Assembly: GCA_028875055.1 (NCBI GenBank)
Contig: JAPPGG010000072.1
Location: forward strand, 115,032 to 179,031
Length of the DNA stretch: 64,000 bases
Direction of reading: 5' to 3'
From: Chloroflexota bacterium
GTDB taxonomy: Bacteria > Chloroflexota > Dehalococcoidia > Lucifugimonadales > UBA3495
The notes under the pieces were generated by a model. It was not told the DNA's origin. It ran no database searches and saw only the letters and a list, made by a program, of their open reading frames with translations. Position numbers and translations under genes: made by a program. This document shows positions 26,807 through 28,362 of the stretch, in pieces; position 1 is the stretch's first letter; every line of letters starts with the position of its first letter.

Positions 26807-26858
26807 CGGGTTGGTTTCCACTTTGAGACCACGCCATACCACAAGACAGAGGTGAAAA

Positions 26859-27323
26859 ATGCCAGCAGAAATTGGCGAAGTTGCGCCGGACTTCAAGCTG
26901 CCTTCCGTCAGCGAGGGCGACTTTACGTTGAGCCAGTTCAAAGGGGAAAAGAGCGTCATTCTCTCTTTCCACGTCTTTGACTTCACATCTGGTTGAACTA
27001 CGCAGGCCACCTCCTTCCGGTCATTTTACGACCGTTTCCAGGAGGCGAATGCCCAGGTTCTGGGTATCAGCTGCGATCACATAGCTGCCCACCGTGCGTG
27101 GAGCACGGCCATGGGTGGGCTGCCCTACCCCGAGCTCTCCGACTGGCATCCCAAGGGGGAAGTTACCACGGCTTACGGCCTGTGGAACGAGGAAAGGGGT
27201 GCGGGAACCCGCGCGGTTATCATCGTTGACAAGGACGGCGTCGTCCGATTCCGGCAGACCTACGCGCCGGGAACCCTGCCCGAGCCCGAAAAAATCCTAG
27301 AAGAACTTTCCGGGCTTGGTTAG
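26859..27323 (+). CDS. AhpC/TSA-type peroxiredoxin with in-frame UGA (candidate selenocysteine)
   Basis: Read through one internal TGA (26994-26996, codon 46), the frame gives a continuous 154-residue thioredoxin-fold peroxiredoxin. The N-terminal part (GEVAPDFKLPSVSEGDFTLS) and the part after the TGA (TTQATSFRSFYDRFQEAN, then GISCDH, then VIIVDKDGVVRFRQTY) are both well conserved. The TGA falls exactly at the peroxidatic position: FDFTSG-[UGA]-TTQ matches the family T-x-x-C-T motif. Selenocysteine is therefore the best reading, and a two-part hairpin follows at SECIS distance. The only other Cys is residue 72. The enzyme would reduce peroxides using thiol donors. AGAGGTGA precedes the ATG. 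selA, selB, selC and selD are not in the window, so Sec machinery must be checked elsewhere. A Cys-to-stop mutation is the alternative. Confidence 0.85.
27010..27045 (+). promoter_or_regulatory. SECIS-like hairpin after the UGA codon
   Basis: Lower stem CCTCC (27010-27014) pairs with GGAGG (27041-27045). Upper stem CGGTC (27018-27022) pairs with GACCG (27030-27034), with a 7-base loop ATTTTAC and an internal loop between stems. It begins 13 bases after the UGA, with the upper stem 21 bases after it, close to the bacterial SECIS position. The apical loop lacks the early G of the E. coli fdhF element, so it is a plausible but not canonical SECIS. Confidence 0.55.
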
Positions 27324-27391: not shown

Positions 27392-27419
27392 CGAGGGGTG
27401 AGTTCCGACTCACCCCTCG
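27392..27419. terminator. Bidirectional intrinsic terminator
   Basis: CGAGGGGTGAGT (27392-27403) and ACTCACCCCTCG (27408-27419) form a 12-bp perfect stem with a TCCG loop between the convergent peroxiredoxin and greA-like genes. On the minus strand it is followed by TTCTTTTTCG. A 14-base direct repeat, GACGGACGAAAAAG, occurs at 27358 and 27376 beside it. Confidence 0.85.
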
Positions 27420-27477: not shown

Positions 27478-28362
27478 CTAGGCCCCGATTTTCTCAATCA
27501 GGTAGCTGAGGGTTCCCTTGGGGACGGTAATCTCAACGGTGTCACCCACGGCCTTGTCCAGGAGGGCCTGGCCTACCGGCGAGACCGTAGAAATCTTTCC
27601 CGATGCTACGTCGGCTTCCCGCTTGTCCACCAGGGTGTAGTTGATTACCCTTCCGGACGCCACGTCCTTGATGGTTATGCTGCTGCCAACCACTGCCCGC
27701 TTGCCCGAATTGGCTTCGGCTTCACCCGAAAGAATCTGGGCGCTCGCCACCTCGGATTCCAGCTCCCGAATCTTGGCCACCACGAATCCCTGGCGTTCCT
27801 TGGCAGCATCCAGGGGCGCGTTCTCCCGGAAGTCCTTGCCTGCCATGGCTTCCTTTACTTCCTGGTCCGCCCTGACCTTTTCCACCTTGTATTTTTCCAA
27901 CTCCTCTACCAGCCGCTGGTAGCCTTCCTCGCTCAGCCGGGGGCCGCTTGCCTGGCCGTTGGCGGCGATGCCCTGCTTACCGGTACCTGTTCGCCGGGCC
28001 CGGCTGGCCCGCAGGTGGACTGAGAGGTTTACTTCGGTCCAATCCTGTTTCTTGAGAAAAACCAGGAATTCTTTGACCGGGGTCAGGCGTTTCTGGGCCT
28101 CGGCTCCCCGCTGGGAAAACTCCCGCGCGTATTCTTCAACCAGGCTGGGAGACAGGTCGTTAACCTTGCGGTCCCGGCCGTACCAGTCTATGAAGCGGAT
28201 AATTTCCTGGTGCCCATCCATCGACTTCTTGGAGTTCTTTACGTTTTTCTTTTCAATAACGAACAGTCCAAGAGCGTCGTGCAAGTTGTCGGGTATCACC
28301 CGTTCGGGGGTGGAAACCGAAGCAGTGGCTGTTTCGGTGGAACTGTTATTGGGCGTTACCAA
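27478..28362 (-). CDS. GreA/GreB-type elongation factor fused to an N-terminal SAM-like (recombinase core-binding) domain
   Basis: The 294-residue protein has two parts. Residues about 140-294 are GreA-like: the coiled coil begins RLSEEGYQRLVEELEKYK, with the acidic tip D-F-R-E-N-A-P, and the C-terminal FKBP-like domain includes VGSSITIKD and ISTVSPVGQALL. Residues about 45-130 look like the N-terminal SAM-like core-binding domain of tyrosine recombinases (IIRFIDWYGRDRKVNDLSP then LTPVKEFLVFLKK), but no catalytic recombinase domain follows. Gre factors restart backtracked RNA polymerase by stimulating transcript cleavage; the extra domain may bind DNA or another protein. The TTG start follows AGGAGGT. 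Normal GreA is about 158 residues, so the extension is real. Confidence 0.85.
   Translation of the reverse strand: MVTPNNSSTETATASVSTPERVIPDNLHDALGLFVIEKKNVKNSKKSMDGHQEIIRFIDWYGRDRKVNDLSPSLVEEYAREFSQRGAEAQKRLTPVKEFLVFLKKQDWTEVNLSVHLRASRARRTGTGKQGIAANGQASGPRLSEEGYQRLVEELEKYKVEKVRADQEVKEAMAGKDFRENAPLDAAKERQGFVVAKIRELESEVASAQILSGEAEANSGKRAVVGSSITIKDVASGRVINYTLVDKREADVASGKISTVSPVGQALLDKAVGDTVEITVPKGTLSYLIEKIGA

Follow-up and report, generated by a model that had tools for sequence, protein, structure and literature searches.

Selenocysteine (Sec) peroxiredoxins of the pfam00578 type, which carry the motif TxxU, constitute an established selenoprotein family that is common in marine metagenomes and is represented, for example, in Eubacterium acidaminophilum, and 253 such sequences were present in the Global Ocean Sampling set of the 2008 ocean survey (PMC2398784, PMC1794560, PMC9312934, PMC13188914). 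The gene described here is located at nt 26859–27323 on the plus strand of a 64,000-nt stretch of a Chloroflexota genome (the window, meaning the whole stretch analysed). Its predicted protein shares with this family the peroxiredoxin fold, a peroxidatic Sec coded by UGA, the TxxU motif and marine bacterial occurrence. Since such enzymes were already established in bacteria and marine metagenomes, as a preliminary description of the locus had correctly stated, the gene adds to a known family and does not represent a new kind of enzyme.

The family was assigned to COG1225 (Bcp/PrxQ) in one review, whereas the window protein was nearer to AhpE, and its score of 74 bits against NCBIfam PrxU was far below the cut-off of 270. 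The best match in both sequence and structure was AhpE of Mycobacterium tuberculosis (Rv2238c; E = 1e-24, TM 0.93), a 1-Cys enzyme for which mycothiol or mycoredoxin serves as the reductant (PMC8945050). The two proteins share the positions of the catalytic Thr, Cys, and Arg, but the window protein has Sec in place of Cys, valine in place of proline at position 39, His where AhpE has F37, and an additional invariant residue, Cys72. Rankings by sequence and by modelled fold both placed AhpE as the closest peroxiredoxin class. The gene thus very probably encodes an AhpE-type Sec peroxiredoxin, judging from its sequence and structure model, and the protein most likely reduces peroxides via a selenolate. 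In a literature search of limited scope, which does not prove absence, no description of an AhpE-like selenoprotein was found.

Reading frame, gene neighbourhood and conservation of the TGA codon

When read through, the frame encoded a protein of 154 aa with Sec at residue 46, starting at ATG and ending at TAG; sequence inspection revealed a Shine-Dalgarno-like sequence, AGAGGTGA, directly 5' of the ATG (nt 26847–26858, plus strand). Exactly one internal stop was present, the TGA at codon 46 (nt 26994–26996, plus strand), in agreement with the preliminary description, and the similarity to peroxiredoxins claimed there for both flanks was borne out by the Pfam domain AhpC-TSA (PF00578), which matched residues 5–131 of the readthrough protein and spanned the TGA (E = 2.2e-35). 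The score of 121.8 bits against a cut-off of 26 places the protein among the AhpC/TSA peroxiredoxins. The internal stop would be expected to lead standard gene callers to split this gene into fragments.

The convergent neighbour, on the minus strand at nt 27478–28362, was a gene of the GreA/GreB family whose product has a long N-terminal extension, and between the two genes lay a strong terminator-like hairpin of 12 pairs (nt 27392–27419, strand unassigned). A GreA-like convergent neighbour was found in 26 of 28 full-length homologous loci, and in many of the loci a quinone-oxidoreductase-like gene was situated beyond it. The extension of the GreA/GreB-family protein comprised about 140 residues ahead of the GreA domains and was partly kept in related loci.

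The homologue set consisted of 31 loci from a genome collection. TGA occupied codon 46 in all 28 full-length homologues (64% to 95% identity) as well as in one fragment, all from independent assemblies, and Cys in none of them; the sole Cys form among the 31 loci was an archaeal protein with 33% identity. In a tree, the 29-member clade that includes the window gene was entirely Sec, so that neither TGC nor TGT was met at this codon when close relatives were compared as the preliminary description had proposed. A class-wide search yielded 29 further, more distant relatives as loci, 26 with TGA and 3 with TGC or TGT at the aligned position. Downstream of the TGA, the frame was intact in all homologues, extending for about 108–110 codons to a common end point, and dN/dS of the full-length homologues relative to the window sequence was about 0.015–0.15, indicating strong purifying selection; the accumulating frameshifts named in the preliminary description were not seen. 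A lone stop within an otherwise intact gene is how a pseudogene or an assembly error would be expected to look, with the TGA being a nonsense mutation or a miscalled TGC or TGT in a Cys peroxiredoxin. However, the identical TGA recurs in the 28 full-length homologues, which are independent and as little as 64% identical, and in the fragment, and hence is due neither to chance nor to sequencing error; moreover, dN/dS after the TGA is far below 1 and the clade lacks a Cys form. This explanation, refuted by codon conservation and purifying selection, is therefore extremely improbable.

The homologues came mostly from SAR202/Dehalococcoidia genomes, and the gene represents a clean selenoprotein case common to a whole clade of these genomes in which the Sec machinery is present (see below). 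Two were otherwise labelled, namely, a "Proteobacteria" MAG and a Candidatus Entotheonella assembly; both the GreA-like and the quinone-oxidoreductase-like neighbours were absent from these two loci, which could be explained by horizontal transfer between sponge symbionts or by bins that were mislabelled. SelA and SelB were reported to be enriched in sponge symbionts in the study from which the bin of the nearest homologue, SAR202 bin22, originated (PMC5649159), and the window gene adds to that report.

Selenocysteine machinery and use of TGA as a stop codon

The preliminary description had named selA, selB, selC, and selD as genes to be sought in the same genome, and all four were there. The genome containing the window (3.75 Mb, 98.4% complete) encoded SelA (E = 5e-135), SelB (E = 5e-103), and SelD (E = 2e-115), together with a tRNA-Sec (67.5 bits) possessing a UCA anticodon and a long extra arm (ARAGORN on locus L002). 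Weaker matches to RF01852 (L003–L009 and others), near or below the cut-off, were discarded as probably ordinary long-arm tRNAs. Among the matches listed, a strong SelA occurred in 67 of the 68 genomes of the class with a TGA-containing peroxiredoxin versus 131 of 226 others, in a comparison of 294 genomes that were coded by hand and are related to one another, so that the p-value of this association is indicative only. The proposal that the gene encodes a Sec-containing peroxide reductase is thereby supported, at the level of sequence, by TGA conservation, the intact frame, and the Sec machinery.

The frame would be open under any residue assigned to TGA, as would be the case if UGA were reassigned genome-wide, for instance to Trp or Gly, and the residue were not Sec. 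Against this, TGA was the terminator of four of the nine neighbouring genes examined and was internal to none of them, several homologues of the peroxiredoxin gene themselves terminate with TGA, and the Sec system of the genome is complete. Since TGA serves as an ordinary stop for the neighbouring genes, the code is not reassigned locally; the stop usage of these nine genes refutes reassignment for the neighbourhood, and its probability is vanishingly small, below even that of a pseudogene.

The active-site position of this genome's SelD (L051:1396–2661, minus strand, contig C49) was likewise coded by an in-frame TGA (HCAGUAAK), making SelD a further selenoprotein candidate; SelD proteins with Sec form a known selenoprotein family (PMC1794560). 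A second TGA further upstream in the listed SelD frame is probably ahead of the true start. Besides the true SelA, a weak SelA-like match of 45 bits was observed in the same genome (L042, C24:1189–1935), probably representing another PLP enzyme. SelA/SelB-like genes have also been described in a RiPP operon of Entotheonella (PMC12858407).

Candidate SECIS hairpin downstream of the TGA

The usual bacterial SECIS has a G among the first two positions of its apical loop. In the window, a SECIS-like stem-loop was observed at nt 27010–27042 (plus strand), in which alignment columns 17–28 pair with columns 38–49, with a UU/UU internal loop and an apical loop at approximately nt 27022–27030. The helix, 16–48 nt downstream of the TGA start, was in two parts, columns 17–21/45–49 and 24–28/38–42 (alignment A1). 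Its covariation score over 25 sequences was 0.272 versus a shuffled mean of 0.131, none of 500 shuffles scored as high, and the signal dropped when the pairing register was slid. Two-sided changes were located predominantly (20 of 23) at the wobble-wobble pairs 18–48, 21–45, and 27–39; as these pairs join third codon positions to third codon positions, selection on the protein is not a ready explanation for the changes, and covariation at such wobble positions is what a bacterial SECIS would be predicted to show. Pairs of the helix were broken in several homologues, with 82% of the cells paired. The fold of the window sequence itself had a slightly shifted outer helix (CCUCCU/AGGAGG), and the apical loop of its strongest fold, AUUUUAC, had no G at the first two positions and hence departs from the classical apical-loop rule. 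An Rfam search gave no match to a SECIS family. The covarying hairpin can be regarded, from the alignment, as a good, though unproven, SECIS candidate.

Another hairpin, at columns 56–74, was picked by RNAalifold from the whole 80 columns but was not taken as the SECIS, since it varies little and lies within a conserved coding stretch. In the window it corresponds to nt 27049–27067 (plus strand), where the nearly invariant arms ATGCCCAG/CTGGGCAT are formed by the codons ahead of GISCD; the DNA here is possibly conserved beyond the need of the protein.

Active site and predicted catalytic cycle

In the AF2 model (pLDDT 90), U46 was at the start of a helix formed by residues 44–55, and the top PDB match in Foldseek was AhpE (TM 0.92–0.94, rmsd about 1.5, 32% identity). 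T43, U46, and R118, equivalent to Thr42, Cys45, and Arg116 of AhpE, the residues by which the thiolate is held there, were invariant in the clade. The TGA had been placed at the peroxidatic residue in the preliminary description, and this assignment held in that the codon aligned with the Cys of M. tuberculosis AhpE and the TxxU motif (T43-x-x-U46) was present; the motif required refinement, however, as the proline of PxxxTxxC was replaced by valine in the active-site sequence FHVFDFTSGU. Valine occupied this position, 39, in 29 of 29 clade members, residues in the wider Sec set varied (P, V, I, L, R, A), and proline was retained by each of the five Cys relatives included in the tree, although this is a small sample. 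The clade is a natural experiment on whether peroxiredoxins, in which the proline is supposedly universal, can dispense with it when they carry Sec.

Replacement of this proline by V39 in all 29 members would also fit a protein in which UGA is read as Sec but which is a regulatory, chaperone-like, or inactive peroxiredoxin homologue and not a peroxidase, and some BCPs that lost the whole PxxxTxxC motif have been interpreted as inactive (PMC8945050). Nevertheless, catalysis is favoured by the invariance of the residues equivalent to the AhpE catalytic triplet and by the retention of so costly a residue as Sec in the active site, and a non-peroxidase function appears unlikely.

For the peroxidase, UGA codon 46 would be read by the tRNA-Sec (UCA) brought by SelB, with decoding guided by the putative SECIS hairpin that lies within the coding sequence immediately 3' of the UGA. 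With T43 and R118 holding it in place, the U46 selenolate would then attack H2O2 or organic hydroperoxides to form a selenenic acid, which may be reduced by an external thiol, as in AhpE. Alternatively, the selenenic acid may be reduced first by C72, via an intramolecular or intersubunit selenenylsulfide.

Besides U46, the window protein has one Cys, C72 (TGC, nt 27072–27074, plus strand). It was invariant in the clade and, in the AF2 model, situated just after the strand 65–71, which makes it possibly the resolving residue. A purely 1-Sec peroxidase that uses an external thiol, with C72 not resolving, is nonetheless somewhat favoured, since the closest structure, that of M. tuberculosis AhpE, belongs to a 1-Cys enzyme and position 72 is occupied by V, T, A, I, or M in Sec relatives that are more distant; the clade-wide invariance of C72 and its place directly after the strand speak against it. 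It is a tentative suggestion, with perhaps one chance in a few, that the clade is a distinct AhpE-type Sec lineage of marine and sponge-associated Chloroflexota in which the proline was lost and C72 was acquired as an internal resolving residue that forms a selenenylsulfide with U46. If true, this would be a Sec-Cys catalytic cycle undescribed for AhpE, and the clade likewise provides a natural test of whether a second Cys was recruited as a resolving residue.

The genome containing the window also possessed a Cys peroxiredoxin and a second Sec peroxiredoxin (L057:1426–1875, minus strand, contig C68), which was about 37% identical to the window protein. The latter shares with the window protein a peroxidatic UGA and the AhpC/TSA fold but differs in being of the PrxQ/BCP type, with the proline kept (FYPRAFTHGU) and a serine at position 72.
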